Of a stretch of 64,000 nt of DNA, positions 11,363 through 61,013 are shown one piece after another. The stretch's first letter is position 1. Every line of letters starts with the position of its first letter. The notes beneath the pieces were generated by a model, which saw nothing but the letters and a program-made list of their open reading frames with translations, ran no database searches and was not told the origin of the DNA. Source of the stretch: Micromonospora sp. NBC_01699 (GTDB taxonomy: Bacteria > Actinomycetota > Actinomycetes > Mycobacteriales > Micromonosporaceae); contig NZ_CP109199.1 of the NCBI RefSeq assembly GCF_036250065.1, forward strand, positions 7,376,001 through 7,440,000, read 5' to 3'. The translations under genes and the position numbers were made by a program.

Positions 11363-11405
11363 CCGATCAGGACGAACCAGTCGGCGGGCCGCCGATCAGG
11401 ACGAA
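11363..11405. repeat. 14-bp direct repeat at PHP gene stop codon
   Basis: CCGATCAGGACGAA occurs perfectly at 11363-11376 and 11392-11405, 29 bp apart. The right copy contains the stop codon of the leftward PHP gene (complement of 11396-11398) and the left copy repeats that TGA in the 3' flank. One of eight gene ends here with repeats at the stop codon. Confidence 0.85.
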
Positions 11406-12295
11406 GAAACCACGGGTACGCCGGTCGCCGCACCCACTATCCGCTCGTACGCCGGCACCGACGTGGTGAACGCGCCCAGCCGTACGGTCTTGTGCTCGCC
11501 GTGGAAGTCCGACGAGCCCGTCACCACCAGTCCCAGTTGCGCCGCGAGCCGCCGTACGTGCGCCTGCTCGGCCGGGGAGTGGTCCTCGTGGTCGGCTTCC
11601 AGCCCGAACAGTCCGGCGGCGGCCAGCTCGACGATCAGCGAGTCCGGCACCACCTCGCCGCGCCGGGTGGCCCGGGGGTGGGCGAAGACCGTCACCCCGC
11701 CGGCCTCGCGGACCAGTCGGATCGCGCGGAAGACGTCCAGGTCGTCCTTTGGCGCTCGGTAACGCCAGCCGAGCCACCTCGGTTCGAACGCCTCGCTGGT
11801 GCTGGCGACCAGGCCGGCCCGGATCAGCGCCTGCGCGATGTGCGGCCGGCCGACCGTGCCACCGGCCGCCCGCGCCTGGATGTCGGTCCAGTCGACGTCG
11901 ATCCCGTCGGCCCGCAGCGACTCGACGATCAGCTCGGCCCGGACCTCGCGGGCGGCCCGGATCCGGGTCAGCTCGGCGACGAGTTCCGGGGCGGTCGGGT
12001 CGAAGAGGTAGGCGAGCAGGTGCAGGGCGATCGACGGCTCGGTGCCGTACCAGCGGCAGGAGAGTTCGGCTCCGCGTACGAGGGTCAGGCCCGGCGGTAG
12101 GGCGGCGACCGCCGGCGCCCAGCCGATGGTGGTGTCGTGGTCGGTGATCGCCACCGTGTCGAGGCCGGCGCGGGCCGCGGCCCGCATCAACTCGGCCGGG
12201 GTGAGCGTGCCGTCGCTGGCGGTCGAGTGGGCGTGCAGGTCGATCCGCGCGTCCGGACCGGGCATGGGCAGGGGGTTCGGTGCGGACGAAATCAC
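11396..12295 (-). CDS. PHP-domain phosphoesterase (RNase AM/3',5'-nucleoside bisphosphatase type)
   Basis: Metal-dependent phosphoesterase of the YciV/TrpH type, 299 residues. Motifs of the PHP fold are in order: DLHAHSTASDGTLTP (HxH plus D), VAITDHDT, GAELSC (Glu ligand), VGRPHIAQAL (His), VFAHPRA and the C-terminal TGSSDFHG. Homologues degrade short oligonucleotides or 3',5'-nucleoside bisphosphates; the exact substrate here is not deduced. I use GTG 12295; ATG 12265 (starting MPGPDARIDLHAHS) is also possible because neither has a strong ribosome binding site. The open frame extending to 13648 is a read-through artefact. Confidence 0.9.
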   Translation of the reverse strand: MISSAPNPLPMPGPDARIDLHAHSTASDGTLTPAELMRAAARAGLDTVAITDHDTTIGWAPAVAALPPGLTLVRGAELSCRWYGTEPSIALHLLAYLFDPTAPELVAELTRIRAAREVRAELIVESLRADGIDVDWTDIQARAAGGTVGRPHIAQALIRAGLVASTSEAFEPRWLGWRYRAPKDDLDVFRAIRLVREAGGVTVFAHPRATRRGEVVPDSLIVELAAAGLFGLEADHEDHSPAEQAHVRRLAAQLGLVVTGSSDFHGEHKTVRLGAFTTSVPAYERIVGAATGVPVVSSS

Positions 12296-12324
12296 TGGTA
12301 CCAGGCTACCGGCAGGCCGGACGT

Positions 12325-12480
12325 CCCCGGTCGGCCGGCCGAACCGGCACCCGTCGGGCCCTGTTCGACCGGCCCGGACGGGATTCGTCGGGCCCCGCTC
12401 GACCGCCCCGAACGGGGACCGCCGGATCCCGGTCGGCCCGACCTCGGGCCGCCGTACCCCGGTCAGCCGGCCGAACCGGC
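12325..12480. repeat. 24-bp direct repeat around the stop codon of the 12463 gene
   Basis: A 24-bp sequence at 12457-12480, which contains the stop codon of the leftward propeller-like gene, recurs at 12325-12348 with one mismatch that turns TCA into TCG (so the second copy has no stop). The two copies bracket a ~108-bp segment in which GTCGGGCC(C)-type words also recur. No gene is seen in 12296-12462. Confidence 0.75.
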
Positions 12481-13683
12481 GACCACCAGCAGGCGGTCGT
12501 TCGCCCCGGTCTCGGGCACCGGAAGCCGGTCGACCACCGGGTCGGGACCGGGCAGCCGGTAAGGCGAGACCCGGAGCAGCGGGCCTCGCTCCCCGGCGTG
12601 CAGCAGCAGCCCGCCGGTGGTCCAGGCCACCGGTCCGGTCAGCCTCGGCCCGGCCGCCCGGACCACCGGCGCCGGCCCGAACACGGTGGTCAGGTCGATC
12701 ATCAGGGCCAGTTCGGCGGAGGCGTTCCCGGCACCGGCGGTGTCGCCGAACCAGTGCGCGAACACCCCGTTGGCGACCAGCCAGCGGCCGTCCGGGGAGA
12801 TGGTGCCGCGACCGCCGGGGGCGAGCGGCAGGGCGCAGGTCACCCTGGTCGTGGCCAGTTCCCGGGCCGCGTCCAGCAGGCCCAGGCAGGGCCGCCCACC
12901 GTCCGCCGCCGGCAGCTGTCCGACCACGGTACGGCCGTCCGGTAGCGCCCCGTAGACGGTGACCGCCGGATCCCGTCCGGACCACCGGTACCCGCCCCGC
13001 TCCGGCCACCACAGGTCGTAGCGCTGGTCCGGGTCGGGCCCGCGGACCAGCACCGCGGCACCGGCGAACCCGGTCGGTACGACCCGGTCCGGTGCGCCGG
13101 TACGCCGGACCGGACCGAGTCGGCCCCCGTCGACCGGGGCGACGAGGAGTTGGTCGCCGTCCCGCCAGGCGACCCGCCGGCCGTCCGGCGCCACCGCCAC
13201 CGCCACCGGCCCGGCCAGCAGCGGTGCCGGCGGGCCGGCGTTGGGGACGTACCAGAGCGTGGATCCGCCGGCCGGGTGGGTGCCCACCACCAGCCAGCCG
13301 CCGGGGGTCCGGCTCGCCTGCGCCACCGGCCCGACCGCGCCGAGGTCGACCAGTTCGCCGGTGGCCGTACGCAGTCCTGCCGGCACCACGACGTCGACCG
13401 GCAGGGCAACGCCACCGGGTGGCCGGGCGGGTTTCGACGGGTCCCCGACCGACAGCCCGCCGACCCCGGCCAGTACGCAGATCAGCAGCACACTCGCGGC
13501 TCCCGTGGCGGTACGCCGCCGCCGGATCCGCCGCCCCCGCCGCCGTACGGCCTCGGCCAGCTCGTCGGCCCGGACCCGATAGCGGTACGCGGCCACCGGC
13601 GGTGGGTCGGCGGCTCCCGGCCCGGTGCCGGCCCGCTCGGCCAGGCACTCCCGCAGCACCCGTTCCAACCTGCCCGTGGTCAC
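12463..13683 (-). CDS. Membrane-anchored propeller-like protein, paralogue of the 13787 gene
   Basis: Hypothetical 406-residue protein. A cytoplasmic N-terminus of about 55 residues rich in Arg (RRRGRRIRRRRTATG) precedes one membrane helix (ASVLLICVLAGVGGL, about 62-76). The rest is predicted extracytoplasmic and contains repeated beta-strand blocks with W/G/D turns such as GRRVAWRDGDQLLVAP, RYDLWWPERGG and GRWLVANGVF, which look like TolB/WD40 propeller blades. It resembles the next gene upstream in overall design. Possibly an anti-sigma-like membrane sensor belonging to the ECF sigma gene at 14953; this is inference from gene order only. Confidence 0.7.
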   Translation of the reverse strand: MTTGRLERVLRECLAERAGTGPGAADPPPVAAYRYRVRADELAEAVRRRGRRIRRRRTATGAASVLLICVLAGVGGLSVGDPSKPARPPGGVALPVDVVVPAGLRTATGELVDLGAVGPVAQASRTPGGWLVVGTHPAGGSTLWYVPNAGPPAPLLAGPVAVAVAPDGRRVAWRDGDQLLVAPVDGGRLGPVRRTGAPDRVVPTGFAGAAVLVRGPDPDQRYDLWWPERGGYRWSGRDPAVTVYGALPDGRTVVGQLPAADGGRPCLGLLDAARELATTRVTCALPLAPGGRGTISPDGRWLVANGVFAHWFGDTAGAGNASAELALMIDLTTVFGPAPVVRAAGPRLTGPVAWTTGGLLLHAGERGPLLRVSPYRLPGPDPVVDRLPVPETGANDRLLVVAGSAG

Positions 13684-13710
13684 ACTGCTTGGACGCCCCG
13701 GCCCCGATTC

Positions 13711-13812
13711 CCGGTTGTCGTCAGCCGGTTGTCGTCAGCCCGTAGGCGGCTCGGTGGTGGTCAGCCGGTGGAGGGCTGGGCGGTGATCAGCCGGTGGAGG
13801 GCTGGGCGGTGA
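13711..13812. repeat. Iterated repeats ending in GGCTGA at a gene's stop codon
   Basis: A 26-bp unit is perfectly duplicated at 13761-13786 and 13787-13812; read on the - strand each copy ends ACCGGCTGA and the right-hand copy supplies the real stop codon (13787-13789). A third, diverged 26-bp unit follows (TGA at 13735-13737), then a 14-bp unit duplicated at 13711-13724 and 13725-13738. TGAs therefore recur at offsets 0, 26, 52 and 66, covering all three frames. Confidence 0.9.
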
Positions 13813-14956
13813 TCAGCTTCGGCACGAACTGCCACTGGGCGGTCACCCCGGCCGGCAGCGGCACCACCCGTTGGGTGCCATCGGTCCCGCACCGGACCAC
13901 ACCCCGGTCGTCGGCGGTCAGCAGGGTCCGGCTGTCGGCCCAGGCCGGCGGGACGGTGGTACGGACCGGGCAGGCCACCGCCTCGGGGCGCCCGGCCACC
14001 GTCGGCGTCAGGTCGACCAGGCGCACCTCCATCGCCCGGGGATCGGCGAGCCAGCCGCCGTCCGGGGTGGTCCGGTCCCCGGTGGTACCGCGTTCGAGGT
14101 CCAGCCCACAGGTGCCGGTCCGCTGGAACGCCAGACCGGCGCCGGCCGCCACCAGGTCGGCCACGCACGGCGGCTGGTCACCGGTCGCGCGTACGAGCCC
14201 GCGCAGGGCGTTGCCGTTGCCGCCGTAGACCGCCGTGACATCGGTGTTCCAGTTCGGCCGGTACGCCCGCTGGGGATCCACCACGTCGAAGCCACCGGTG
14301 TCGGCGGTCACCACCACGGACCGGTCGAGGAAGGCCACCGGCGAGATGCCGGCCGGCACGTCGACCCTCGTCCGTACGGCGAGGCCGGTGGCGCTGACCC
14401 GGGCCACGTAGAGCGCGGTGTCGATGACGAAGGCGAGCTGGTCCCCGCCGGGGTTCAGCGCCCACCGGTCCCGGTTGCCGCTGAGTGAGATCGAGCTGCC
14501 GTCGGTACGCAGGAACCGGATCCCGTCGGTTCCGCCGTACACCCAGCCGGTGGGGACCCGGTAGATCCGGGTCACCCTGCCGACCCCGGTCAGCGGCAGC
14601 GTACGGCCGTCGGTGGTCCAGAGCCGGTCGGTGGCCCAGAGGTCCAGGCCGACGCCGGTGTCGGTGGTGGGGCGCGGCTCGACCGGCGGGCCGCTGGGGG
14701 TGGCATCCGGCTGGCCGTTGAAGGCGATCACCGACTCGCCCGGGTCGGCGTTGCCGCCGGAGATGTCCCGTAGCGAGACGATCCCGCCGACGGTGACCAG
14801 CAGCGCGAGCGCGGCGGCGACCGACGAGGCGGCGGTTCGGCGTCGTCGGGCCGCCCGCCCGCGACGGATGGCGACGCTGGCCGGGTCGTTGATCAGGGGC
14901 GGGGACTGGACCTGTTCGGCGAACATGCCCCGCAGCGAGTCCTCAAGCATCGTCAT
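13787..14956 (-). CDS. Membrane-anchored propeller-like protein, possible anti-sigma partner
   Basis: A 389-residue protein with a short cytoplasmic N-terminus (MTMLEDSLRGMFAEQVQSPP), a basic cluster RRGRAARRRRTAAS, one membrane helix (about 43-60), and a large extracytoplasmic part with propeller-like repeats (VPTGWVYGGTDGIRFL, RWALNPGGDQLAFVID, SPVAFLDRSVVVTAD). It overlaps the SigE-family sigma gene by 4 bp (ATGA), the arrangement typical of a sigma factor and its membrane regulator, so an anti-sigma or co-sensor role is plausible. No zinc-binding HxxxCxxC motif of the classical ZAS domain is present, so binding mode would differ. Confidence 0.72.
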   Translation of the reverse strand: MTMLEDSLRGMFAEQVQSPPLINDPASVAIRRGRAARRRRTAASSVAAALALLVTVGGIVSLRDISGGNADPGESVIAFNGQPDATPSGPPVEPRPTTDTGVGLDLWATDRLWTTDGRTLPLTGVGRVTRIYRVPTGWVYGGTDGIRFLRTDGSSISLSGNRDRWALNPGGDQLAFVIDTALYVARVSATGLAVRTRVDVPAGISPVAFLDRSVVVTADTGGFDVVDPQRAYRPNWNTDVTAVYGGNGNALRGLVRATGDQPPCVADLVAAGAGLAFQRTGTCGLDLERGTTGDRTTPDGGWLADPRAMEVRLVDLTPTVAGRPEAVACPVRTTVPPAWADSRTLLTADDRGVVRCGTDGTQRVVPLPAGVTAQWQFVPKLITAQPSTG

Positions 14957-15741
14957 CGGCCCTCGCCCCGGGCCGCCGGCCCGGCTGGTGCCGGTGCCCC
15001 GGGCACGGTCGTCACCGGCAGCCGGGCCGACGCGGTACGCGGCACGGCCGGCACCCGACGTGGCGCGGGTACGGCTGCCGGGGCGGCGCCGCGTGCTCCA
15101 CCCGGACCGGCGGTCGACCCGGTGTCGGTCCGCCCCCTGGCCGGCGAGCCGTGAGCGGATGCCCCGGCGGCAGCGGGTGCCCCGGCAGCAGCGGCGGTAC
15201 GGGCGGCGAGGGCGGCCTGCGTTCCGAGGGCCGTCGCCGAGCCCGGCTGTTCCTCGCCGAGGCGGCGGCGCAGCGTGTTGAGCGCCCGGAAGGTCTGGCT
15301 CTTGACCGTGCCGGGCGAGATGTTGAGCATCGCGGCGGTCTGCGCCTCGGTCATGTCCTCGTAGAAGCGGAGCACCAGGACGGCCCGCTGCCGGGCCGGC
15401 AGGGTCCGTACGTGCCGCCAGAGGGCGTCACGTTCCAGCTGCTCCTCGATCATGTCCGGGGCCGGCCGCTCGGGCAGCACCTCGGTCGGGCGCTCGCCGT
15501 GCCAGCGCCGCCGCCACCAACTCGTCGCGGTGTTGACCAGCACCCGCCGCGCGTACGGCTCGACCGCCTCGATCTCGCCGAGCCGCTTCCAGGCCAGGTA
15601 CGTCTTGGTCAGCGCGGTCTGCAACAGGTCCTCGGCCGTCGCCCAGTCCCCCGCCAGCAGGTACGCGGTACGCAGCAGGGCGGCGGATCGGGCCGCGACG
15701 AACTCGCGGAACTCGTCTTCCAGGTCTGCCCTGGCCGCCAC
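14953..15741 (-). CDS. SigE-family ECF RNA polymerase sigma factor with Ala/Pro-rich tail
   Basis: ECF sigma factor of the 'SigE family' common in actinomycetes. Region 2 is visible as FVAARSAALLRTAYLLAGDW followed by TAEDLLQTALTKTYLAWKR, and region 4 as LPARQRAVLVLRFYEDMTEA with the helix-turn-helix MLNISPGTVKSQTFRALNTL. The core ends near residue 170; about 90 further residues are Ala/Pro/Gly-rich, longer than usual and probably disordered. GTG 15741 follows GGGGAGG by 8 bp. It overlaps and probably co-transcribes with the two propeller-like membrane genes downstream. Confidence 0.9.
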   Translation of the reverse strand: MAARADLEDEFREFVAARSAALLRTAYLLAGDWATAEDLLQTALTKTYLAWKRLGEIEAVEPYARRVLVNTATSWWRRRWHGERPTEVLPERPAPDMIEEQLERDALWRHVRTLPARQRAVLVLRFYEDMTEAQTAAMLNISPGTVKSQTFRALNTLRRRLGEEQPGSATALGTQAALAARTAAAAGAPAAAGASAHGSPARGRTDTGSTAGPGGARGAAPAAVPAPRRVPAVPRTASARLPVTTVPGAPAPAGPAARGEGR

Positions 15742-15877
15742 CTGTCGCCTCCCCGAAGCTGTACCAACCGTCAGGTTGTCACAGCCAGGGCCGTCGAGTC
15801 GACGGCGATCAGTGCGGGTTCCCTCCGATTTTCGGTTGGAAGTCCCGCACCCATCGCACAGTCTCGGCTACACCGAG

Positions 15878-16753
15878 CTACGCTCCGTCGTCGGCCTTGG
15901 CCTCGTCGGCTTCCTTGCCGAGCCGCGCCTCGACCGCCTGCGGCTCGTACATTTCCTCGACCACACGCAGGTAGAGCTCGTTCGGGTTGGGCAGGTACTT
16001 GACCTCGCGCAACGCCTGGTCCTGACCGGCCGACTCCAGCACGAAGGTGCCGTAGTTGAGGGTCCGGCCCAGCGGCGACTGCTCGTACTTCATGTCGGTG
16101 ACCCGGGCCAGCGGCATCATCGCGACCCGCCGGGTGATGATCCCGTTGACCACCATCACCCGCTTGTTGGTCAGGATGAACCGGTCGAAGAACCAGTCCG
16201 CGACCTTCCATGCCACGTAGCCCATGACGCCGAGCCAGATCAGCGCGGCGATCAGGGTGAGCCCGGCGATCTGCTGCCCGGCCAGGAAGCCGGAGAGGTA
16301 GCCGAGCACGAAGGTGGCGGCGAGCCCGATCAGGATCGGGGTGGCCAGATAGATCTTGTGTCGCTTCCACTCGCCCCGGTACCGCTCGGTGGGGAAGAGG
16401 TAACGCGCCACCAGGGCGGTCGGCTCGTCCTCCAGCGGCAGCACCCGGCGCGGGCCGAGCGGCATGCCCGACGCGTCGACCCGGAGCCCGGCCAACTCCT
16501 CTTCGGAGATTTCCGGGGGCCGGTAGCCGGCGTCCGGGTCACGGTCCCAGGTCCGGCCCGAGCGTGACTCGTCGTCGTAGCCGGCGCCCTCGGGGTAGGG
16601 CGGCCCGTCCGAATAGGAGGGGCCGCCACCGTAGGGAGAGCCGTCGCCGAGGTCGTCGTCGGGTCGGGCTCGGGGAATCGGCTCGGTGTCCCGCTCGCGA
16701 CGCCAGCGTTCGGCGTCGTCTGGGTCGGGGGGTGGCCCGGACGGATTGCCCAT
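15878..16753 (-). CDS. Bacterial PH-domain (DUF304) membrane protein
   Basis: A 291-residue membrane protein. The first ~120 residues are acidic and Gly/Pro/Tyr-rich (GGGPSYSDGPPYPEGAGYDD) and probably disordered; two close membrane helices follow (ATPILIGLAATFVLGYLSGF and GLTLIAALIWLGVMGYVAWK), then a bacterial PH domain with RFILTNKRVMVVNGIITRRV and GTFVLESAGQDQALREV. PH-like domains of this class occur in membrane-stress proteins, but the role is unknown. A 52-residue membrane protein gene ends 6 bp upstream on the same strand, so the two are likely co-translated. Confidence 0.85.
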   Translation of the reverse strand: MGNPSGPPPDPDDAERWRRERDTEPIPRARPDDDLGDGSPYGGGPSYSDGPPYPEGAGYDDESRSGRTWDRDPDAGYRPPEISEEELAGLRVDASGMPLGPRRVLPLEDEPTALVARYLFPTERYRGEWKRHKIYLATPILIGLAATFVLGYLSGFLAGQQIAGLTLIAALIWLGVMGYVAWKVADWFFDRFILTNKRVMVVNGIITRRVAMMPLARVTDMKYEQSPLGRTLNYGTFVLESAGQDQALREVKYLPNPNELYLRVVEEMYEPQAVEARLGKEADEAKADDGA

Positions 16754-16759
16754 GCCCGG

Positions 16760-16918
16760 CTACGCGAAGAGGCTGGCGAAGAAGTCGCTGAAGCCCTGCG
16801 CGATGTCCATTACGCCGCCGCCCAACGACTTGAAGACGTCGGCGGCGGAGTCAGGTCGGAACGCGACGAAGAAAACCAGGAAGGCGATTCCGCCCCAGGT
16901 GAGGACCTTCTTGACCAT
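16760..16918 (-). CDS. 52-residue single-helix membrane protein
   Basis: Small protein starting MVKKVLTWGGIAFLVFFVAF and ending FSDFFASLFA, with one N-terminal hydrophobic helix and a short amphipathic C-terminus. ATG at 16918, stop TAG at 16760-16762. It is directly upstream of the PH-domain membrane protein (6-bp gap), the codons have the high G/C third position of real genes here, and no other frame is plausible. Function unknown; a small membrane partner of the PH-domain protein is an inference from adjacency. Confidence 0.75.
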   Translation of the reverse strand: MVKKVLTWGGIAFLVFFVAFRPDSAADVFKSLGGGVMDIAQGFSDFFASLFA

Positions 16919-17037
16919 GACGGGCCATCCCCTCATCGGCGCCGAGTGGCGTCACCGCAGCAGTACGTAGCGTATCAGTCAGGTGTCGTACCGTGAATTC
17001 CAAGTTTGTGCCATTTCCGAACCGGCCCGGCCGGTCG

Positions 17038-17736: not shown

Positions 17737-17813
17737 ACGAACTACAGTCCACGGCACAGCACCCCGTAGTCAAGCGAACCGGCCTTTTCGGTCAACTTGC
17801 CTCGGAGCGGCGG

Positions 17814-18482: not shown

Positions 18483-18491
18483 AGAGGGTAC

Positions 18492-18610
18492 GGCCCGTCG
18501 GGCACCCCGCTCGGCGCAGGCCCGGCAGCGCCAAGCCCCGTCCAGCGCAGGCCCGACGGCACCGAGCCCGTTCGACGCGGGCCCGACGGCACCGAGCCCC
18601 GCTCAGCGCA
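18492..18610. repeat. Four tandem ~31-bp units, one containing a stop codon
   Basis: Units lie at 18492-18518 (27 bp, most diverged), 18519-18549 (31), 18550-18579 (30) and 18580-18610 (31). They share the core GGCCCGACGGCACCGAGCCC. The last unit includes the stop codon (18603-18605) of the leftward gene that starts at 19232, and the array extends to within 10 bp of the TrmH start. Only this unit keeps TGA; in the others it has become CGA, TGG or CGA. Confidence 0.88.
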
Positions 18611-19232
18611 GAGCCAGTGCGGTGCCGAGTCGGGCGAGGAAGCCACCGGAGCCGTCGGGCAGCCACTCCCCGGCGGTGCCGAGGTGCCGGTCCACCGGGT
18701 GGGCGGCCCGGCGTACCCGTGCCGCCACCGACTGCACCCACTGCCGGTAGGCCGCCGAATCAGCCGGGTCGGCCCGGTCGGCGAGCAGTTCGACCGCCGC
18801 CTGGCAGGAGACCAGCAGTCCGGCCAACCGGTCGTGCCGGTCGGCCCGCCGCCCGGCACCGGACGCGACCGAAGAGCCGGACACGACCGAAGAGCCGTCA
18901 CCGGGTACGCCACCATGACTCCCGCCCAGCCGCCACGCCGGGCGGAGTCCGGCGTACAGCGGCGCGTCGTCGGGTTCGGCGTAGATCGCCGCCACCACGG
19001 CCCGGACCAGGTCACTGTCGAATGCCCGTCCGGCGGCGATGCCCTCCAGGCCGGCCAGCCCCTCACGGACGGCATGGCGCGGACTTGCCGGTTGCGGCGA
19101 GGTTGCCGCCACCAGGACCCGACCGGGCAGCCGGATGAGTAGTTTCCACTCGTCGGTGGAGTAGGCCAGGGTGGGCGCTCGGCCGGTTCGGCGACCGGCG
19201 ATCGGCGGCTCACCCGGCACGGAGTAACTCAT
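18603..19232 (-). CDS. Conserved hypothetical protein
   Basis: A 209-residue, mostly alpha-helical cytoplasmic protein with no membrane segment or recognised motif. Recognisable stretches are AYSTDEWKLLIRLPGRVLVA at the N-terminus and VREGLAGLEGIAAGRAFDSD, AAYRQWVQSVAARVRRAA and PVDRHLGTAGEWLP later. A Ser/Gly/Val insertion (GDGSSVVSGSSVASGAG) includes an imperfect internal repeat. The overall layout resembles uncharacterised actinobacterial proteins; I cannot assign a function. ATG at 19232; upstream is a 619-bp gene-free stretch. Confidence 0.7.
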   Translation of the reverse strand: MSYSVPGEPPIAGRRTGRAPTLAYSTDEWKLLIRLPGRVLVAATSPQPASPRHAVREGLAGLEGIAAGRAFDSDLVRAVVAAIYAEPDDAPLYAGLRPAWRLGGSHGGVPGDGSSVVSGSSVASGAGRRADRHDRLAGLLVSCQAAVELLADRADPADSAAYRQWVQSVAARVRRAAHPVDRHLGTAGEWLPDGSGGFLARLGTALALR

Positions 19233-20214: not shown

Positions 20215-20318
20215 CCCACCCACCACCCGCACCACCCCGGCCGGCCACCCCAGGTGCCCGGCCGGCCCCTTTCCCCTCCCCTCCCCTCCCCTTCCCCCGC
20301 CCCCTCCCCGCTCTCTTT

Positions 20319-24234: not shown

Positions 24235-24243
24235 ATCAGGGTC

Positions 24244-30472: not shown

Positions 30473-31825
30473 ATGAACAACACCGATTTAAATCCATCGG
30501 GCGAGCCCCAGGCAGGCGACGACCCGACCCCGAGCCGTACCGGCCTGAGCCGTCGCACCCAGATCATCGCCGCCACCAGCGCCGTCGGTCTCGCCGCGAT
30601 AGCCGGCACCGGATACGCGATCCTCGCCGGACCCGGCTCCGACCCGGCCCCCATGGTGTACGCCAACGCGGGCACCATCGTCGCCGGCCAGACGTTCGAC
30701 CGGCCGATCGAGATCGCGGCCGACAACGTCACCCTGCAACGGGTGACCATCCGGACCGGTGGGACGGCGGCCATCCGGATCCGCCCCGGCGTCTCCGGCG
30801 CCACCATCACCGACACCGACATCCACTGCACCGACAGCAACACCGACGGCATAGTGCCCGGCGACTACGCGGCGACCCGGGTCACCGTGCAGGGCTGCCG
30901 AAGGTCGTTCGTACAGAGCACGGCCGCACCGGCGACCATCGTCGACTCGGAGCAGAACGGCGAGGCGTACTCACCGGACGTACCCGGCGGGGTCGCGGTC
31001 GCGCCCACACCCTCCGGCCTCGGCCCGGAGGACCCGCTGCCGAGCCCCACCCGGACACCGACGACGACCCCGCCGACCCCGCTCAGCTACTGGCCCGGCC
31101 CGACCACCACCGGCGTGCCGATCGGCACCGTGCTGACCAGCTCGGGCTCGCTCGACGTACGCCAGGACGGCCAGGTGATAACGAACCTGAACATCGTCGG
31201 CTGCGTCACGGTCCGGGCCAACAATGTGGTCATCCGCAAGTCACGGATCACCTGCAACAGCCCGACCTTCTCCATCCGGGTCTACGACACGGCGGTCAAC
31301 CTGCTGGTGGAGGACGTCGAGATCAACGGCACCGGCCGCAACTCCACCTCGGTCTGCTGCGGCAACTACACCCTGCGCCGGGCCAACGTCTACAACATGG
31401 TCGACGGTCCCCGCATCGGCACCAAGACCACCATCGTGGACTCGTGGATCCACGACCTGTCCAGGGTGCCCAACTCACACAACGACGCCCTGCAAACCAC
31501 CGGCGGCAGCAACATGCTGGTCAAACACAACCGGCTGGAGCCGTACAAGGCGAGCACCAACGACCCGCACAACGCCTGCATCATGATCGGCTCGACCACC
31601 GCGGACGCGGTCCGCAACCTGACCTTCGAGGACAACTACTGCAACGGCGGCAACTACTCCATCGGGGTACGGGACGACCTGGTCGCCTCGAACATCGTGA
31701 TCAGGAACAACAAGTTCGGCCGCAACTACCGCTTCGGCGTCATCGCCCGCCCCAACCAGACAGGCGTCCTCTGGGACCGGGCGACCAACGTCTGGTTCGA
31801 CAACGGCCTCCCGGTCGTCCGTTGA
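30473..31825 (+). CDS. Secreted parallel beta-helix repeat protein
   Basis: A 450-residue exported protein. The N-terminus has a twin-arginine type signal (GLSRRTQIIAATSAVGLAAI), then a first short beta-helix-like block (about 60-160, VTLQRVTIRTGG, GATITDTDIHC), a Pro/Thr linker (SPTRTPTTTPPTPLSYWPGP), and a longer right-handed beta-helix domain with NNVVIRKSRITCNS, NLLVEDVEINGTGRNST and NHNDAL-like turns (PNSHNDALQTTGGSNMLVKH). Such folds are common in polysaccharide lyases and carbohydrate-binding surface proteins; no catalytic residues can be assigned. ATG 30473; weak ribosome binding site. 3' end has a 15-bp tandem array. Confidence 0.85.
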   Translation: MNNTDLNPSGEPQAGDDPTPSRTGLSRRTQIIAATSAVGLAAIAGTGYAILAGPGSDPAPMVYANAGTIVAGQTFDRPIEIAADNVTLQRVTIRTGGTAAIRIRPGVSGATITDTDIHCTDSNTDGIVPGDYAATRVTVQGCRRSFVQSTAAPATIVDSEQNGEAYSPDVPGGVAVAPTPSGLGPEDPLPSPTRTPTTTPPTPLSYWPGPTTTGVPIGTVLTSSGSLDVRQDGQVITNLNIVGCVTVRANNVVIRKSRITCNSPTFSIRVYDTAVNLLVEDVEINGTGRNSTSVCCGNYTLRRANVYNMVDGPRIGTKTTIVDSWIHDLSRVPNSHNDALQTTGGSNMLVKHNRLEPYKASTNDPHNACIMIGSTTADAVRNLTFEDNYCNGGNYSIGVRDDLVASNIVIRNNKFGRNYRFGVIARPNQTGVLWDRATNVWFDNGLPVVR

Positions 31826-31917
31826 CCACCGTCGACCACCGCGCGTTGATCATCGCCCATTGACCAACCGCCCGTTCACCAACCGCCCGTTCACCAACCG
31901 CCCGTTGACGAACCGCC
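31819..31917. repeat. 15-bp tandem array starting at a stop codon
   Basis: The unit CGTTGACCAACCGCC, in variants, is repeated at 31858-31872, 31873-31887, 31888-31902 and 31903-31917, with degraded copies at 31819-31833 and 31843-31857. The first copy contains the stop codon of the beta-helix gene (TGA at 31823-31825). The array fills the space between this gene and the convergent oxidase-family gene. Confidence 0.88.
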
Positions 31918-31957
31918 CGACGGTCTGCCCCGCCGCCCCGTATCGGGGACAGGCCGG

Positions 31958-38075: not shown

Positions 38076-38119
38076 GGCCGGTGCCGGAATCAACCGACGG
38101 TGGCCGGTGCCGGAAATCA
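38076..38119. repeat. 17/18-bp direct repeat ending in a stop codon
   Basis: GGCCGGTGCCGGAAATCA (38102-38119) ends with the complement of the phzF stop codon (38117-38119); a copy lacking one A lies at 38076-38092, placing a second TGA 27 bp downstream of the first in the same frame. Confidence 0.82.
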
Positions 38120-38986
38120 GCCCACGAACGGCGGGACGGTGATCCGGCCGGCGGCGATCGGGACGACCTGGCCGGCGACGGTGGCGCCCAGCGCCACCCC
38201 GTCGGCCGCGGTCACCGTACATTCGAGCAGGCACGGGCGGGCGATCTCGGCACCCTGGCGCACGGTGTACGACGAGCGCCCCTCCCCCGGCAGCAGCCCG
38301 CTGGTGACCAGCCACACCCCGAGGCCGAGGGCGGCCGAGCCGGTGCCCGGATCCTCCGGCACGCCGACCCCCGGCGCGAAGACCCGGGCGTACGCGGTGC
38401 GCTGCGCCGGATGCCAGGCGAAGACGCTCAGGTGCTCGACCCCGGCCCGTACCGCCGCCGGGGCGTTGAGCACCACCCGGCCCAGTGCCTCCGGTCGGAC
38501 CGACAGGTACGGGAACTCCAGCCCGCAGCCGGCCACCCGGGGAGCCGGCCCGACGAAGTCGGCGGCGGTCAACCCGACCATGGCCAGCAGCGGCTCCACG
38601 TCCAGCTCCGGGCCGAGCGTGGGACCGGCGCCGGTGACCGTGGCCCGGTCGCCGGTCACCTCGATCGGCAGCAGGCCGGCACCGCACTCCTGGATCACCT
38701 CACCGGCACCGAACCAGCCGCGCCGACGGGCGGTGACCGCCGCGCCGATACTCGGGTGCCCGGCGAACGGAAGTTCCTGCTCCGGGGTGAAGATCCGGGC
38801 CCGGTACGTCGCCGTGGCCGCCGTGGACGGCAGCACGAATACCGTCTCGGACAGGTTGAACTCCCGGGCGATGATCTGCATCTGCTCGGTCGCCAGTGCC
38901 TGGGCGTCGAAGACGACCGCGAGCGGGTTGCCGGCGAACGGACGGTCGGTGAAGACGTCCACGATCTCGTACGCCAAGGTCGACAT
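38117..38986 (-). CDS. PhzF-family epimerase/isomerase
   Basis: A 289-residue two-domain diaminopimelate-epimerase-like fold. Family hallmarks: YEIVDVFTDRPFAGNPLAVV at the N-terminus, AREFNLSETVFVLPS (catalytic Glu), ARIFTPEQELPFAGHPSIGA, YARVFAPGVGVPEDPGTGSA and LPGEGRSSYTVRQGAEIARP. Phenazine-type isomerase activity is only known for true PhzF; most homologues have unknown substrates and no phenazine genes are nearby. ATG 38986 is used; an in-frame ATG at 39007 is possible but would nearly abut the divergent gene. The 3' end shows a stop-codon repeat. Confidence 0.9.
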   Translation of the reverse strand: MSTLAYEIVDVFTDRPFAGNPLAVVFDAQALATEQMQIIAREFNLSETVFVLPSTAATATYRARIFTPEQELPFAGHPSIGAAVTARRRGWFGAGEVIQECGAGLLPIEVTGDRATVTGAGPTLGPELDVEPLLAMVGLTAADFVGPAPRVAGCGLEFPYLSVRPEALGRVVLNAPAAVRAGVEHLSVFAWHPAQRTAYARVFAPGVGVPEDPGTGSAALGLGVWLVTSGLLPGEGRSSYTVRQGAEIARPCLLECTVTAADGVALGATVAGQVVPIAAGRITVPPFVG

Positions 38987-48828: not shown

Positions 48829-49616
48829 CCGAGCCGTTGCTCATCGAGCGTGCCGACGCCGTCGTCACCCTGACCCTCAACCGTCCCGAGGCGATGAACT
48901 CGCTCGACGTCGCGCTCAAGGTCGCGTTGCGGGACGCGCTGGCCGAGCTGGAAACCGACCGCTCCTGCCGAGCGGTGGTGCTCGCCGGTGCCGGTCGGGC
49001 CTTCTGCGCCGGGCAGGACCTGCGCGAGCACGTCGAGACCCTGCGCACCCGCCGGGCCGACCCGCTGGGCACCGTACGGGCGCACTTCAACCCGATCGCG
49101 GCCCGGCTGGGCAACCTGCCCAAACCGGTGGTGGCCGCGGTGCGGGGCACGGCTGCGGGCGCCGGGGCGTCGCTGGCGTTCCTCGCCGACTTCCGGATCG
49201 GCGGCCCGTCGACGAAGTTCCTGATGGCGTTCGCCAAGGTCGGCCTGGCCGCCGACACCGGCGCCTCGTGGTCGCTGCCCCGCCTCGTCGGGCACGCCAA
49301 GGCGGTCGAGCTGCTGATGCTCGCCGAGCCCGTACCGGCCGCCGAGGCCGACCGGCTGGGCCTGCTCACCCAGCTCCTGGACGACGACGAGGACGTGGTG
49401 CCGGCCGCCCAGGCGCTGGCCGCCCGGCTCGCCGCCGGCCCGACCGTGGCGTACGGGGCGATCAAGCGGCAGCTGTCGGTCGGTGACGCCGGAACGCTGT
49501 CCGAGGCGCTGGCCGCCGAGGCCCAGGCGCAGGCGATCTGCGGCGCCACCGAGGACCACCGGGTCGCCACCGTCGCCTTCGTCGACAAGCAGCCGGCGGT
49601 CTTCGTCGGCCACTGA
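48825..49616 (+). CDS. Enoyl-CoA hydratase/isomerase (PaaG-like)
   Basis: Crotonase-fold enzyme of 263 residues. The first oxyanion-hole segment is VVLAGAGRAFCAGQDLREH and the second GTAAGAGASLAFLADFRIGG; the AFAKVGLAADTGASWSLPRL segment is typical of PaaG-like isomerases acting on ring-oxepin or 2,3-didehydroadipyl-CoA. It overlaps paaX by 4 bp, so a phenylacetyl-CoA pathway role is the best guess, but a general beta-oxidation role cannot be excluded. GTG 48825. The 3' end bears a tandem repeat of its last codons. Confidence 0.9.
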   Translation: MTEPLLIERADAVVTLTLNRPEAMNSLDVALKVALRDALAELETDRSCRAVVLAGAGRAFCAGQDLREHVETLRTRRADPLGTVRAHFNPIAARLGNLPKPVVAAVRGTAAGAGASLAFLADFRIGGPSTKFLMAFAKVGLAADTGASWSLPRLVGHAKAVELLMLAEPVPAAEADRLGLLTQLLDDDEDVVPAAQALAARLAAGPTVAYGAIKRQLSVGDAGTLSEALAAEAQAQAICGATEDHRVATVAFVDKQPAVFVGH

Positions 49617-49692
49617 GCCGGGCTACGCGGTCTTCGTCGGCCACTGAACCGGGCTACGCAGCGGTCTTCCTCGGCCACTGATCCGGTGCTAC
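49596..49692. repeat. Three tandem ~31-bp copies of a gene's 3' end including the stop codon
   Basis: Units at 49596-49626 and 49627-49657 differ at one base; a third, diverged unit is at 49661-49692 after a 3-bp insertion. Each contains the TGA that ends the enoyl-CoA hydratase gene (TGAs at 49614, 49645 and 49679, offsets 0, 31 and 65, so all three frames). A partial fourth copy continues into the terminator stem. Confidence 0.92.
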
Positions 49693-49728
49693 CGGTCTTC
49701 CGGGGCTACCCGGAAGACCGGTAGCACC
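49685..49728. terminator. Stem-loop between convergent genes, 19-bp perfect stem
   Basis: Arms at 49685-49703 (GGTGCTACCGGTCTTCCGG) and 49710-49728 are perfectly complementary with a 6-base loop. It sits between the enoyl-CoA hydratase stop and the secreted small protein stop, suggesting bidirectional termination. The left arm is partly built from the upstream tandem repeat. Confidence 0.8.
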
Positions 49729-49731
49729 CGG

Positions 49732-50010
49732 CTAGCGGCGACCCCAGGGCAGCTCGGTGTGCTGGAACCACCAGCCGTCCTGCGCGTCGTTCGGCTTGTC
49801 GTGGTAAGCGCACCGGCCCACGAACACGGGGATCTCCCGGTAGATCTCGCGGTAGCGTTCGCACTCGGCCTCGTCGTAGTACGGCCCGCTCGGGTACCAG
49901 GTCGCGGCGGACGCGGGTCCGGCCGCCGACGAGGCGAGAATCAGTCCGGAGAAGCAGGTGGCCACTGCCACGGCGACACGGTTGCGCACGACGTCTCCCA
50001 GCCTCGACAT
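49732..50010 (-). CDS. Small secreted protein with two cysteines
   Basis: A 92-residue protein with a signal peptide (VAVAVATCFSGLILASSAAGPASA, cleavage probable after ASA-A) and a mature part of about 55 residues: WYPSGPYYDEAECERYREIY, FVGRCAYHDKPNDAQDGWWF. Mature Cys residues likely form one disulfide. No function assigned; similar small exported proteins are common in this family of organisms. ATG 50010. Convergent with the enoyl-CoA hydratase gene. Confidence 0.78.
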   Translation of the reverse strand: MSRLGDVVRNRVAVAVATCFSGLILASSAAGPASAATWYPSGPYYDEAECERYREIYREIPVFVGRCAYHDKPNDAQDGWWFQHTELPWGRR

Positions 50011-52547: not shown

Positions 52548-52674
52548 AGAAGAATCGTGTCACGCCCACCCCCGTCGGGCGACCCCGCCACCCCGCCCGA
52601 CTCCCGTCGCACCGCCGTCGCCGGCGGCCGGTTAGCGTCGGGGTCATCGGTGTCGGCTTCGAGGGAGGTTCCGG

Positions 52675-53544: not shown

Positions 53545-53557
53545 GCCGCCGGGCGGA

Positions 53558-53938: not shown

Positions 53939-53969
53939 GCGCGGGAGCCTACCCGTACCGGGGGGCCGG

Positions 53970-54194: not shown

Positions 54195-54216
54195 GACGGC
54201 GCCTCCTCATCCCTAT

Positions 54217-54261
54217 CGTCAACATACGTTGACGCATCCGGATCGTCAACACATGCTGACG
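54217..54261. promoter_or_regulatory. Two tandem 18-bp palindromes upstream of the HTH gene
   Basis: CGTCAACATACGTTGACG at 54217-54234 has perfect 7-base arms (CGTCAAC/GTTGACG). A second site at 54244-54261, CGTCAACACATGCTGACG, has one mismatch. Centres are 27 bp apart. They lie 23-67 bp upstream of the HTH start codon and 102 bp from the divergent surface-protein start. Confidence 0.8.
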
Positions 54262-54362
54262 GCGGCACCCGCTCGTTACGGATTTGTTCCGTGTGGAGAC
54301 GCCGTACCCGGCCCGGCGGCGCCGAATAATGGGGCTGACCGAGCAGCACCACGGAGGACCGG

Positions 54363-55853
54363 ATGGCAGGCGTCGAGTTCGAACCACGTACTCGCACACC
54401 TCGGCACACCCTCCGGCGGGGCGGTGGCCGCGGCCGTACCGGGAACCGGGCACGAACGAGCGCCACCCTGGCCGTCGCGGCGCTCGTCGCGCTCACCACC
54501 GTGGGGTTCGCCGCGCTCCTGGCCGTCGACGGGGGCCGGCCCGCCGCCGCGACCGTCCGGGCCGTGCCCGAGCCGGAACAGCCGAGCGGCGGGGGGACCG
54601 CCCCGGCGGAACCGGAACCGAGCCAACCACCGGAAACCGGGCAACCGACCACGCCACCGGCCGCCGAGCCACCGACCGACGCTCCGCCGACCGATGCTCC
54701 GCCGACGGGCGGGCCGACCGATCCGCCCCCGCCGGTCGACCCGCCGCCGACCGGCGACCCCGACCCCGTACCGTCCTCCTCCCCGCGGCCGCCCGGCACC
54801 CTGCCCAGGCCGCCGTCGCGGCCGGGACCACCCCGGCTCGGGGTCACGGTCGGCACCGGCGACATCACCCTCACCGACGCCTACTGGGGCGCCCGGAACA
54901 CCACGGCCGAACTGCGGGTGACCGTGACGAACACCGGCGACGTGCCGCAGCTCGTCCGGCTGCGGTACGCGCTGCCCAGCGGCGTCACCGACGCCGGCAC
55001 CGAAGGCTGTTCGGCGACCGGGAACGGGACGTACCAGTGCGGCGCCTGGACCGCCGCGGCCGGCGCCCGGTTCAGCGCCCGGATCCGGGTCCTGGTCGCC
55101 GCCGACGCCTGGCAGCGGATGCCCCTCGACGGTTCGGTGCAGGTCAGCGCCACCGACCCGGCTCGACCGGGGGTGGCCGCGGTGACCGACGACGAGGGCT
55201 TCGCGGTGCTCTTCCCGGCCGGCCCGCCGTCGGCCGGAGTGACGCTCGGCGCCGACGAGGTCGCCTTCGACGTGACCGGGACGCCGACCACGCTGGTGGT
55301 CCGGCTCGGCAACACCGGTACGGCCGACGCGGCGGGCACCGTCGATGTGGTCCTGCCGGCCGGCGTCACCGTGCCGACCCCACCGAGCGGCTGCCGCCCG
55401 ACCGTGCCGTCAGCCGCCGTCCCGGCCCCGACCGATCCCGACCCGTCCGGCGCCGGCCCGACCGGTACGTCCCGGGTCGCCTGCGACCTCGGCCGGGTCC
55501 GGGCGGGTCAGACCGCCACCGTACGGCTACCGGTCGCCGCGACGCCGGACGCCCAGCGGATGGCTCCGCTGTCCGGGGCCGCCATCGGCACCCTCGTCCC
55601 GGCACACGGCCGGACCGACCGGATCCAGATGAGCTTCCGGATCAGCGCGGTCGCCGCCGGCGGCACCGTCGGTACGGCCGGTGCGACGCCGGTCGGTTCC
55701 CAGGGGGTACTGGTGGTGCGACCGGTCTCCCGTCCGGACGACGGGCTGACCGGCGTGCAGCGGACCGCCATCGGGCTGATCGTGGTCTCCGGCCTGCTGG
55801 TGGTGGTGGCACTGACGTTCGCCGCCGTGACGCTGCGCCGGCACACGCACTGA
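54363..55853 (+). CDS. Surface-anchored protein with Pro-rich stalk and CARDB/DUF11-like domains
   Basis: A 496-residue protein with a basic N-terminus, one membrane helix (VAALVALTTVGFAALLAV, about 41-58), a Pro/Thr/Glu-rich stalk (about 70-160), two beta-sandwich-like domains (TAELRVTVTNTGDVPQLVRL and TTLVVRLGNTGTADAAGTVD) and a C-terminal helix (GLIVVSGLLVVVALTFAAVT) with a short basic tail. Features suggest a cell-surface adhesion or envelope protein; no sortase motif is present. The stalk contains near-perfect PPTDA repeats. ATG 54363. Function unassigned. Confidence 0.78.
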   Translation: MAGVEFEPRTRTPRHTLRRGGGRGRTGNRARTSATLAVAALVALTTVGFAALLAVDGGRPAAATVRAVPEPEQPSGGGTAPAEPEPSQPPETGQPTTPPAAEPPTDAPPTDAPPTGGPTDPPPPVDPPPTGDPDPVPSSSPRPPGTLPRPPSRPGPPRLGVTVGTGDITLTDAYWGARNTTAELRVTVTNTGDVPQLVRLRYALPSGVTDAGTEGCSATGNGTYQCGAWTAAAGARFSARIRVLVAADAWQRMPLDGSVQVSATDPARPGVAAVTDDEGFAVLFPAGPPSAGVTLGADEVAFDVTGTPTTLVVRLGNTGTADAAGTVDVVLPAGVTVPTPPSGCRPTVPSAAVPAPTDPDPSGAGPTGTSRVACDLGRVRAGQTATVRLPVAATPDAQRMAPLSGAAIGTLVPAHGRTDRIQMSFRISAVAAGGTVGTAGATPVGSQGVLVVRPVSRPDDGLTGVQRTAIGLIVVSGLLVVVALTFAAVTLRRHTH

Positions 55854-56139
55854 CCGGGGCGGACCCGCGATCGTGCGGACTTCGGGAGCGGCCGCGCAAT
55901 CGGCGGTATCGGCGCCCGGCCTCGGGCGATGATGGATCGGGAACCGGACCGAACCTTCAGTGATCTGGGTTACGTCGATAAAGTTTGACCAGGCAAATAC
56001 CGGTAAATCCGCTTTCTTGACCTTCCCATCGGACGGACCTGGGGGAAGGTTTACCTAAGGGTCCGACGTAGGCTCTCGGAGACAGGGCGGGGACAGACCG
56101 ACAAGGCGTCCGAACCGCCGGCCGGCGACAGGAGGTCAC

Positions 56140-57979
<1,840 letters not shown>

Positions 57980-57987
<8 letters not shown>

Positions 57988-59014
57988 GCCCCTCGCTCTC
58001 AAGCTCACCACCAAGGACTTCAAGTCCGACCAGGAGGTGCGCTGGTGCCCCGGTTGCGGTGACTACGCGATCCTGGCCGCGGTCCAGTCGTTCATGCCCG
58101 AGTTGCAGATCCCGCGTGAGCGGACCGTCTTCGTCTCCGGCATCGGCTGCTCGTCCCGCTTCCCGTACTACATGAACACGTACGGGATGCACTCGATCCA
58201 CGGGCGGGCCCCGGCGATCGCGACCGGCCTGTCGGTGTCCCGGCCGGACCTGTCGGTCTGGGTGGTCACCGGTGACGGCGACGCCCTCTCCATCGGCGGC
58301 AACCACCTGATCCACGCGCTGCGCCGCAACGTCAACCTGAAGATCCTGCTGTTCAACAACCGGATCTACGGCCTGACCAAGGGGCAGTACTCGCCGACCT
58401 CGGAGGTCGGCAAGATCACCAAGTCGACCCCGGTCGGCTCGGCGGACTCGCCGTTCAACCCGCTGTCGCTGGCGCTCGGCGCGGAGGCGACCTTCGTCGC
58501 CCGCACCATCGACTCCGACCGCAAGCACCTCCAGTCGGTGCTCCGGGCCGCCGCCGAGCACCAGGGCTCGGCGTTCGTCGAGATCTACCAGAACTGCAAC
58601 ATCTTCAACGACGGCGCGTTCGAGCAGCTCAAGGAGCCGGGTACGCGCGACGACTACCTGATCCGGCTGGAGCACGGCCAGCCGATCACGTTCGGCGCGC
58701 AGGGGCAGTTCTGCGTCGTACAGGCGCCGGGCGGCTTCGGCCTGGAAGTACGCGACACCGCCTCGGTCCGCCCCGAGGACATCGTGGTGCACGACACCGG
58801 GGTGACCGAGCCGGCGTACGCGTTCGCGCTCTCCCGGCTGCCCGGCTTCGACCTGCGCAACACGCCGATCGGGGTGCTTCGCAAGGTGTCCCGGCCGTCC
58901 TACGACAGCATCGTGCAGGAGCAGGTCGCCACCGCCGTCGCCGGCAACACCGACACCCCGGAGCAGCAGCTCGCCGGCCTGCTCAACAGCGGCGACACCT
59001 GGACCATCAGCTAG
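57980..59014 (+). CDS. korB: 2-oxoacid:acceptor oxidoreductase, beta subunit
   Basis: TPP-binding subunit of 344 residues. VRWCPGCGDYAILAAVQSFM provides Cys of the iron-sulfur/TPP region, VSGIGCSSRFPYYMNTYGMH, and the TPP motif GDGDALSIGGNHLIHALRRN followed by LLFNNRIYGLTKGQYSPTS. C-terminal segment GVLRKVSRPSYDSIVQEQVA is typical. Starts 8 bp inside korA, so both subunits are made together. A perfect 15-bp stem-loop follows and separates it from the convergent potassium channel gene. Confidence 0.95.
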
Positions 59015-59034
59015 CTCGCACCACCGGCACGTGC

Positions 59035-59068
59035 AGCAGGGCCCCGTGGTCGTCCACGGGGCCCTGCT
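59035..59068. terminator. Stem-loop between korB and the potassium channel gene
   Basis: AGCAGGGCCCCGTGG (59035-59049) pairs perfectly with CCACGGGGCCCTGCT (59054-59068) across a 4-base loop. It lies between convergent genes; no T-tract, so termination would be by stem strength or bidirectional use. Confidence 0.85.
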
Positions 59069-59092
59069 CGCGTCGTACGGGGGCCGGAGCGG

Positions 59093-60103
59093 TCAGACCT
59101 GCGTGGTGGACGGACGGTCGTCGCGTACGAAGACCAGCATGTCGCCGGTTTCGATCCGCACCCCGGCCGGTTCCACCACCGAGACCACCTTGCCGCGCCG
59201 GATCAGCGCGATGACGAGCGCCTCGACCTCGCGGGGTGAGGTGCCGACCTCGCGCCGCTCGGCCGACCGCATGGCCAGCGCCATGCCCTGACCGGGGGTC
59301 AGCAGGTCCTCGACCACGTCGATCAGCGGCGGGGCGGAGGTGGACAGGCCGAGCAGCCGGCCGGCGGTGGCGGACGAGACGATCACGTGGTGCGCGCCGC
59401 TCTGCTTCAGCAGGGGCGCGTTCTCGGCCTCGCGTACGGCCGCGATGATCCGCACCTGGCCGGCGGTGAGCTGCCGTACGGTGAGCGCGACCAGCACCGA
59501 CGCGTCGTCGCTGTCGGTGGCGATGATCACCGCCTTGGCGTTCTTGACGTGTGCCTCGTTGAGCACCGAGGACCGGGTGGCCGAGCCCTCGATGGCGACC
59601 AGTCCGGCGGCGGTGGCCTGCCGTACGGCGGTCGCGCTGCGCTCCACCACGACGATCTTCGACTTGTCGTATTCGGTCTCCAGCAGGGCGCTGATGGCGC
59701 TGCGGCCCTTGGTGCCGTAACCGCAGATGATGACGTGGTCTTTCACAGTTTTCCTCCACCGCGTCATGCGGAGGTTGGTGCGGTACTGCTCGGTCAGGAC
59801 TTCCAGCGTGGTGCCGACCAGGATGATCAGGAACAGCACCCGGGCCGGGGTGATGATCAGGACGTTCACCAACCGGGCGGAGGGTGAGATGGGGGTGATG
59901 TCGCCGTACCCGGTGGTCGAGAGGGTCACCACCGCGTAGTAGGCGGAGTCGAGCAGGGTGAGGTTGTCCTCGTTGACGTCCCGGTAGCCGTCCCGGTCTA
60001 TGTAGACCACGAAGACGATGATCAGCACCAGGCCGATGGCGGCGAGAAGTCGCAGGCTGAGGGCGCGCAACGGGCCCTGCCGGACGGCGGGGAAATGGAT
60101 CAC
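59093..60103 (-). CDS. Two-helix potassium channel with RCK (TrkA-N/TrkA-C) domains
   Basis: A 336-residue channel of the MthK type. Two membrane helices (LLAAIGLVLIIVFVVYI and LVNVLIITPARVLFLIILVG) flank the selectivity filter TTGYGD at residues 63-68. A TrkA-N Rossmann domain follows (DHVIICGYGTKGRSAISALL, IVVVERSATAVRQATAAGLV) and a TrkA-C domain ends the protein (VIALIRRGKVVSVVEPAGVR, IETGDMLVFVRDDR). GTG 60103 is the preferred start; the longer frame to 60196 has no good start. Convergent with korB. Confidence 0.93.
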   Translation of the reverse strand: MIHFPAVRQGPLRALSLRLLAAIGLVLIIVFVVYIDRDGYRDVNEDNLTLLDSAYYAVVTLSTTGYGDITPISPSARLVNVLIITPARVLFLIILVGTTLEVLTEQYRTNLRMTRWRKTVKDHVIICGYGTKGRSAISALLETEYDKSKIVVVERSATAVRQATAAGLVAIEGSATRSSVLNEAHVKNAKAVIIATDSDDASVLVALTVRQLTAGQVRIIAAVREAENAPLLKQSGAHHVIVSSATAGRLLGLSTSAPPLIDVVEDLLTPGQGMALAMRSAERREVGTSPREVEALVIALIRRGKVVSVVEPAGVRIETGDMLVFVRDDRPSTTQV

Positions 60104-60428
60104 CGCGGGTCCGGTCCGGTCGCCACACTCTGCTGCACGCCCACAACATAGCGGGTACCCGCGACCGGAAACGCACGGGCGGCCGACACCCGGCATCGAG
60201 CGGCAGCGCCGCCGGCCGCCACGCCGTCACCGGTGGTTTCGACCCGGTGACGCCGGCCCGATGACATGCGTCTGTTTCGACGCATGTCGACAAATATTCA
60301 TGCTAGATCGAGATCGACGTCCAACGATTCATCGAGACTGGGCAGACCCCGGTAACCCGCCGGTAACAAAACCCCATCCCCCCGGGTGCCCCCACCACGG
60401 GCATCGTTTCCTCCGGAGGTATCCCCCC
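60104..60428. other. Intergenic control region before the phospholipase gene
   Basis: No gene seen in 325 bp between divergent starts. GACATGCGTC at 60263-60272 is repeated inverted at 60279-60288 (6-base spacer), a candidate operator or hairpin. Just after it the sequence turns AT-rich (CGACAAATATTCATGCTAGATC), which looks like a promoter. GGAGG at about 60415 is the ribosome binding site of the phospholipase. Confidence 0.6.
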
Positions 60429-60965
60429 ATGCCCCGTCGGTTGACCACAATGCTCGCCGCCGCAGCGTTCGCCCTGCTCGGCATACTCGGCGTTGCCTCG
60501 CCCGCAGCCGCGGTGACGCCCGCCCAGAAGCTCTCCGTCCTGACCGGTTGGACCCAGACCAGCGCCGCCAGCTACAACAACTGGAACGCCGCCCGGAACA
60601 ACAAGGCTCCCTGGGCCGACTACAACTTCGACTGGTCCACCGACTACTGCTCGTCGAGCCCGGACAACCCCCTCGGGTTCAACTTCGAGCTCTCCTGCTA
60701 CCGGCACGACTTCGGCTACCGCAACTTCAAGGCGATCGGCCAGTTCCCGGCCAACAAGTCCCGGTTGGACAGCGCCTTCTACGAGGACCTCAAGCGCTCC
60801 TGCGCCACCTACAACTCGATCGTACGTCCGGCCTGCACCAGCCTGGCCTGGATCTACTACGAGGCGGTGAGCGTCTTCGGCAAGGTGGCCGTCAGCCAGG
60901 CCGACCTGGACCGCGTGGCCAAGATGAAGTCCGACGCCGAGCGGAGCGCCGGCCTCGTCCACTGA
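60429..60965 (+). CDS. Secreted prokaryotic phospholipase A2
   Basis: Exported phospholipase A2 of the Streptomyces violaceoruber type, 178 residues. A signal peptide (TTMLAAAAFALLGILGVASP, cleavage near ASPAAA) is followed by DWSTDYCSSSPDNPLGFNFE and the catalytic SCYRHDFGYRNFKAIGQF, where His-Asp (HD) is the active pair, then KSRLDSAFYEDLKRSCATYN. Cys residues at both motifs would form the structural disulfides. Calcium-dependent lipid hydrolysis outside the cell is expected. ATG 60429 with GGAGG about 9 bp upstream. Its stop codon begins an 18-bp repeat series. Confidence 0.9.
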   Translation: MPRRLTTMLAAAAFALLGILGVASPAAAVTPAQKLSVLTGWTQTSAASYNNWNAARNNKAPWADYNFDWSTDYCSSSPDNPLGFNFELSCYRHDFGYRNFKAIGQFPANKSRLDSAFYEDLKRSCATYNSIVRPACTSLAWIYYEAVSVFGKVAVSQADLDRVAKMKSDAERSAGLVH

Positions 60966-61013
60966 GCCGGTTCCACCCGCCGAGCCGGGCTCGCCCGTCG
61001 AGCCCGGCTCGTC
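60960..61013. repeat. Three degenerate 18-bp units spanning a stop codon, with stem-loop
   Basis: Units at 60960-60977, 60978-60995 and 60996-61013 share the pattern CnCnGAGCCSG; the first holds the phospholipase stop codon, replaced by CGA in the others. The second and third form a perfect 13-bp stem (CGAGCCGGGCTCG, 60981-60993, with 60999-61011; 5-base loop), likely a bidirectional terminator before the convergent cyclase-like gene. Confidence 0.8.

Follow-up and report, generated by a model that had tools for sequence, protein, structure and literature searches.

Repeats through stop codons in a Micromonospora genome as the probable edge of duplication-tolerant 3' flanks

Direct and tandem repeats running through stop codons were reported by an initial annotation at eight gene ends in a 64,000-nt stretch of the Micromonospora sp. 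NBC_01699 genome (positions 7,376,001 to 7,440,000 of contig NZ_CP109199.1, hereafter the window). Stop codons have no special part in these repeats, which are ordinary tandem duplications of the minisatellite type: their distribution shows no preference for the stop, the copies frequently lose the stop triplet, and the repeats are lineage-specific. The best reading, to which we give a probability of roughly 0.82, is that these are recent, nearly neutral tandem duplications, for which no function of the stop codon is needed.

Repeat frequency at stops and at other positions

The source genome of the window (G000, a single contig of 8.28 Mb) was sampled as 60 stretches of 20 kb, its congeners G001 and G002 (also single contigs) as 20 stretches each, including the region syntenic to the window, and four further genomes (G003, G005, G027 and G036) as 10 stretches each; Streptomyces is represented by 39 of 80 loci, all around one gene family and hence not random. 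In total, about 3.06 Mb of G000 and its relatives was sampled outside the window. Genes were called with our own codon-usage caller rather than taken from curated annotation, so that starts and small genes are uncertain; 66 genes were called in the window. All repeat scoring was ungapped, at periods of 8-150. Under the strict test, net matches must number at least 4 both before and after the stop, the score must reach 12, no more than one mismatch may fall within the stop triplet, and a copy must lie downstream. A loose score also counts arrays that merely abut the stop, strong flank matches offsetting mismatches in the stop. Counts are those of the strict test unless the loose score is named, and the eight listed ends were also scanned with Tandem Repeats Finder (TRF).

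Outside the window, repeats with a downstream copy are found at 28/2668 stops, compared with 11/2660 at coding position -60 nt; repeats with an upstream copy are found at 9/2511 starts and 5/2668 stops. Where the gap is at least 60 bp, 19/1381 genes have a repeat at the stop, compared with 47/1381 at +24 nt. Neither G000 nor the pooled data show a peak at the stop; a plateau begins downstream of the stop, which forms its shoulder. Thus, in the comparison proposed by the initial annotation, stops do exceed start codons and coding DNA, but they fall below other 3'-flank DNA.

Repeat density, measured as the share of positions inside repeats in gaps of 120-600 bp (135 convergent, 359 divergent and 401 tandem), is 3.7-6.0% at every distance from the stop in convergent gaps, which are not expected to contain a promoter, and 0.6-1.7% in divergent gaps, with its minimum near the start; in tandem gaps it declines from 4.4% next to the stop to 1.1% next to the following start. 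When the best array in every 80-500 bp gap was placed at random, stop-spanning placements being allowed, 17.7 stop-spanning arrays were expected outside the window at a threshold of 14 and 11 were seen (probability of 11 or fewer, 0.06), and at a threshold of 18 there were 8 against 11.3 expected. On the start side of tandem gaps, 1 array was seen versus 9.4, the expectation being taken as on the stop side. On balance, the contrast with start codons reflects the removal of harmful duplications near starts and not an attraction to stops. The association with stops that had been put forward therefore largely falls away, the repeats being commoner elsewhere in the 3' flank and in no excess over uniform placement.

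The sequence of the copies agrees with their positions in giving the stop no privilege. Copies keep the stop triplet in 17/40 cases, compared with 445/675 for other triplets, and the periods ignore the reading frame (12/12/16 over the three residues modulo 3). A stop-specific repeat system was accordingly rejected as a candidate: repeats are fewer at the stop than at +24, spanning arrays number 11 where 17.7 were expected, and the triplet is not preserved.

By the loose score, 5.88% of G000 ends have a repeat with their own flank, compared with 4.02% when the flank of another gene is substituted, and own flanks exceed swapped ones in seven of eight groups (the exception being G005). Chance is rejected as the cause of the strong cases.

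The called coding fraction is 0.804 in G000, compared with 0.859 and 0.844 in G001 and G002, respectively. Low-complexity tracts make up 5/24 of the strict repeats at +24 in G000 and the window. The G005 stretches L203-L212 are repeat-rich in their 3' flanks (8/83 strict at +24, the units shown differing by eye), and the loose score at positions 80 nt after stops in this genome gives 14/82 (downstream) and 17/82 (upstream).

Gene ends of the window and of related genomes

The repeats are lineage-specific. Syntenic orthologs of most window genes are present in G001 and G002, and ortholog ends were compared for the five window genes that pass the strict test (4 ends in G001, 5 in G002) and, among the 11 strict G000 genes outside the window, for the 6 whose gap is at least 60 bp (6 ends in each congener). 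In this comparison of sister species, as the initial annotation had suggested making, a strict repeat is missing at 20 of the 21 orthologous ends and present at the end of the PHP-domain gene in G002. At stop 18603 and at L139:7173 both congeners retain the coding end but have no downstream copies; the copies in the flank therefore derive from the coding end there, and in these testable cases the proposal that each gene copied its own end fits. The ortholog of the gene ending at 13787 has a repeat of period 25 in G001 (loose score 13, strict test failed), which may share a common origin with the 13787 repeat.

Strict repeats pass through the stop at five of the eight listed ends (11396, 12463, 13787, 18603 and 49614), for which the reported repeats are thus upheld; those at 31823 and 38117 are short or degenerate, and the array at 60963 follows the stop. 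On the minus strand, the PHP-domain gene (11396-12265) has two 18-bp copies (11359-11376 and 11388-11405, period 29) within 11359-11405, the second of which includes its stop at 11396-11398. The next gene (12463-13659, minus strand) has two 24-bp copies within 12325-12480 (12325-12348 and 12457-12480), of which the second includes the stop at 12463-12465; these are 132 bp apart and not head to tail, the distant copy has CGA where the stop is TGA, and a separate 34-bp tandem repeat (12352-12416) lies between them. At 13711-13817, also on the minus strand, 14-bp and 26-bp tandem arrays lie over the stop (13787-13789) of gene 13787-14956, the strict repeat having the 26-bp unit. The gene for a 209-aa protein ends in a 31-bp tandem array of 3.5 copies by TRF (18505-18611, minus strand), the last copy of which includes the stop at 18603-18605; its strict match is at period 61, and the copy has TGG in place of TGA.

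The enoyl-CoA hydratase gene on the plus strand has a 31-bp tandem array of 3.3 copies by TRF (49596-49700), the first copy including its last codons and its stop (49614-49616). At 31819-31919, on the plus strand, a weak 10-bp repeat over the stop at 31823-31825 (loose score 10, strict test failed) is accompanied by a 15-bp array (31854-31919) lying entirely in the downstream flank. Within 38076-38126, on the minus strand, exact 14-bp copies (38076-38089 and 38102-38115) adjoin the stop of the PhzF-like gene at 38117-38119, with a 1-nt indel beside the match (loose score 9, strict test failed). An 18-bp tandem repeat that forms a stem was detected by TRF at 60976-61015 on the plus strand, downstream of the phospholipase A2-like gene, whose stop (60963-60965) is outside the array (loose score 8, strict test failed). 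Copies are head to tail at a fixed period in the TRF arrays at 13711, 18505, 31819, 49596 and 60976.

Pfam matches bear out the names PHP (PF02811), PhzF (PF02567), enoyl-CoA hydratase (PF00378) and phospholipase A2 (the prokaryotic domain PF09056, window positions 60018-60965, E 1.8e-35) given to these genes; the propeller and beta-helix names have no Pfam match. Judged by eye, the repeat units differ between loci, as had been stated, and a single dispersed stop-associated element of the TAACTGA type was rejected for want of a common unit. The stretch 49561-49800, the sole one searched against the genome, gave two matches, both of them its own location.

Origin and persistence of the repeats

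We infer slippage as the molecular event, together with near-neutrality. In this GC-rich actinobacterial genome, local tandem duplications with units of roughly 10-40 bp would arise throughout, replication slippage or template misalignment being the probable mechanism, and would survive mainly where they do little harm, in the DNA just 3' of genes. When the duplicated segment contains the stop, translation would still end at the first copy and yield the same protein, so that the stop would naturally form the left edge of a permissive zone. Expression would change if a start codon or promoter were duplicated, and such events would tend to be removed. Among the three causes proposed in the initial annotation, slippage appears to be the best; back-up stops are not favored, and terminator building does not hold as a rule.

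Several observations weigh against recent, nearly neutral duplication. Neighboring triplets are retained more often than the stop triplet (p = 0.0036), a difference that strict neutrality does not predict. In G001 and G002 the rate at stops (8/696) is not lower than that at +24 (5/516), and repeats at +24 are found at 26/673 positions in G000 compared with those 5/516 in the congeners (p 0.0016); therefore mutation or tolerance differs between species, the rates at stops being alike (11/963 in G000, 8/696 in the congeners). In divergent gaps the depletion of start-spanning arrays is weak, with 3 seen versus 5.4 expected at a threshold of 14 and 3 versus 2.6 at 18, and in the divergent gaps of G000 they are not depleted (3 seen, with 3.0 expected at 14 and 1.2 at 18). 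The PHP-end repeat is common to G000 and G002, the sole strict case among the 21 ends. C-rich tracts after stops, described below, are strand-specific, and selection may therefore act on part of the flank. The window itself has strict repeats at 5/66 stops, compared with 11/963 over the other sampled parts of the genome (p = 0.0023), and random placement predicts 1.9 spanning arrays for it where 4 are seen.

At a Poisson rate, a genome of this kind, with 129 windows, would be expected to have about 0.14 windows like this one. Nothing unusual is seen at the syntenic ends in G001 and G002 (2/121 strict). Because the window was reported for looking unusual, it is read as a local high spot, an outlier selected post hoc, but its density may have a local cause in G000.

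The maximum of repeat density after stops, and the position of G000 above its congeners at +24, could also reflect a mutational hot spot at gene 3' ends, where transcription end, R-loops or replication conflict would make more duplications. This is unlikely, since density in convergent gaps is roughly even, with no clear fall away from the stop, and selection alone explains the sparse repeats in divergent and promoter-side DNA. Most improbable is selection for back-up stops, by which repeats would be kept for extra TGAs in several frames that catch read-through or frameshifted ribosomes. TGAs do fall in all three frames in the 13711 array (stop 13787) and the 49596 array (stop 49614), as first reported, because spacings such as 26, 31 and 34 are not multiples of 3, and out-of-frame stops are somewhat commoner at the 65 ends with a loose repeat than over all ends. 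However, selection for back-up stops does not sit well with the poor retention of the stop triplet or the flat distribution of periods modulo 3, and within the 19 codons that follow, in-frame stops are outnumbered by those in each other frame, both over 1465 ends (353/27835 versus 400 and 433 in the other frames) and at the 65 repeat ends (19/1235 versus 29 and 31).

Terminator building, in which the repeats would be raw material for hairpin terminators or a by-product of them, for example by template switching at stems, is very unlikely as the general cause, although two stems lend it some color. A 17-bp stem with a 4-nt loop was identified by folding between two convergent genes (49688-49725, plus strand), its left arm resembling a partial repeat copy by eye. 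Both this stem (z -6.5) and the one at 60976-61015 (z -5.2) overlap repeats and fold strongly; they correspond to the stems at 49685 and 60981 that the initial annotation described as made partly from the repeats. The 49688 stem does seem to use the 49614 repeat; such recruitment is possible but not general. In the 90 nt that follow the stop, predicted folding does not differ between flanks with and without repeats, repeat-free flanks being sampled at 150 per class: the mean z is -1.25 for 71 convergent flanks with repeats versus -1.53 without (p 0.22), and -1.24 for 62 tandem flanks with repeats versus -1.02 without (p 0.15). At the 49614 end, both congeners have other inverted repeats by eye near the site of the stem and no strict tandem repeat, which suggests fast turnover of terminator-like sequences.

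C-rich, G-free tracts of 24 nt, which we take to be possible Rho-loading sites, occur on the sense strand within 80 nt after 12/489 stops in G000 and the window (for example, at the ends of L020:453-1262, L006:16762-17448 and L019:3297-4127), after 2/297 in G001 and G002 and 3/74 in G005, and after none in the four remaining groups. No group has tracts of the reverse type (G-rich, C-free), and the C-rich type is absent upstream of starts. In the first 20 nt after the stop, C exceeds G in all seven groups.

Gene tails might also seed spacer DNA in this species, with non-coding 3' flanks growing by repeated self-copying that can take in the coding end and the stop, and with a load above that of sister species. 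We regard this as doubtful; if true, it would constitute a mutational route to new intergenic DNA. A 3'-flank control is needed before repeats in GC-rich bacteria are claimed to be linked to stops, as coding or start-codon controls alone would have given a false positive here. Repeats through stops are the expected edge of a permissive zone.

Comparison with known repeat systems

Variable number tandem repeat (minisatellite) loci of bacteria are arrays of units, each tens of bp long, that are arranged head to tail and often lie outside coding sequence; they are attributed to slippage. The repeats described here resemble them in their head-to-tail units and in their frequent location in non-coding DNA. 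Among the listed titles and abstract openings of open-licence papers, no stop-spanning repeats with unrelated units were found in actinobacteria, which is weak evidence of absence.

In archaeal Borg elements, tandem repeats can start within gene ends and arise independently, and most intergenic units have a length that is not a multiple of three, with 14-38% being multiples (PMC9879509). Borg units are perfect, A-enriched, pervasive and extrachromosomal (PMC9879509), whereas those of G000 are imperfect and sparse and belong to a GC-rich bacterial chromosome. The TAACTGA direct repeats of Beggiatoaceae can overlap stops and place stops in three frames, and some repeat-bearing gaps correspond to shorter spacers without obvious repeats in relatives (PMC4679880). 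That system employs one shared heptamer genome-wide with a proposed regulatory role (PMC4679880), whereas the units of the Micromonospora repeats vary by gene.
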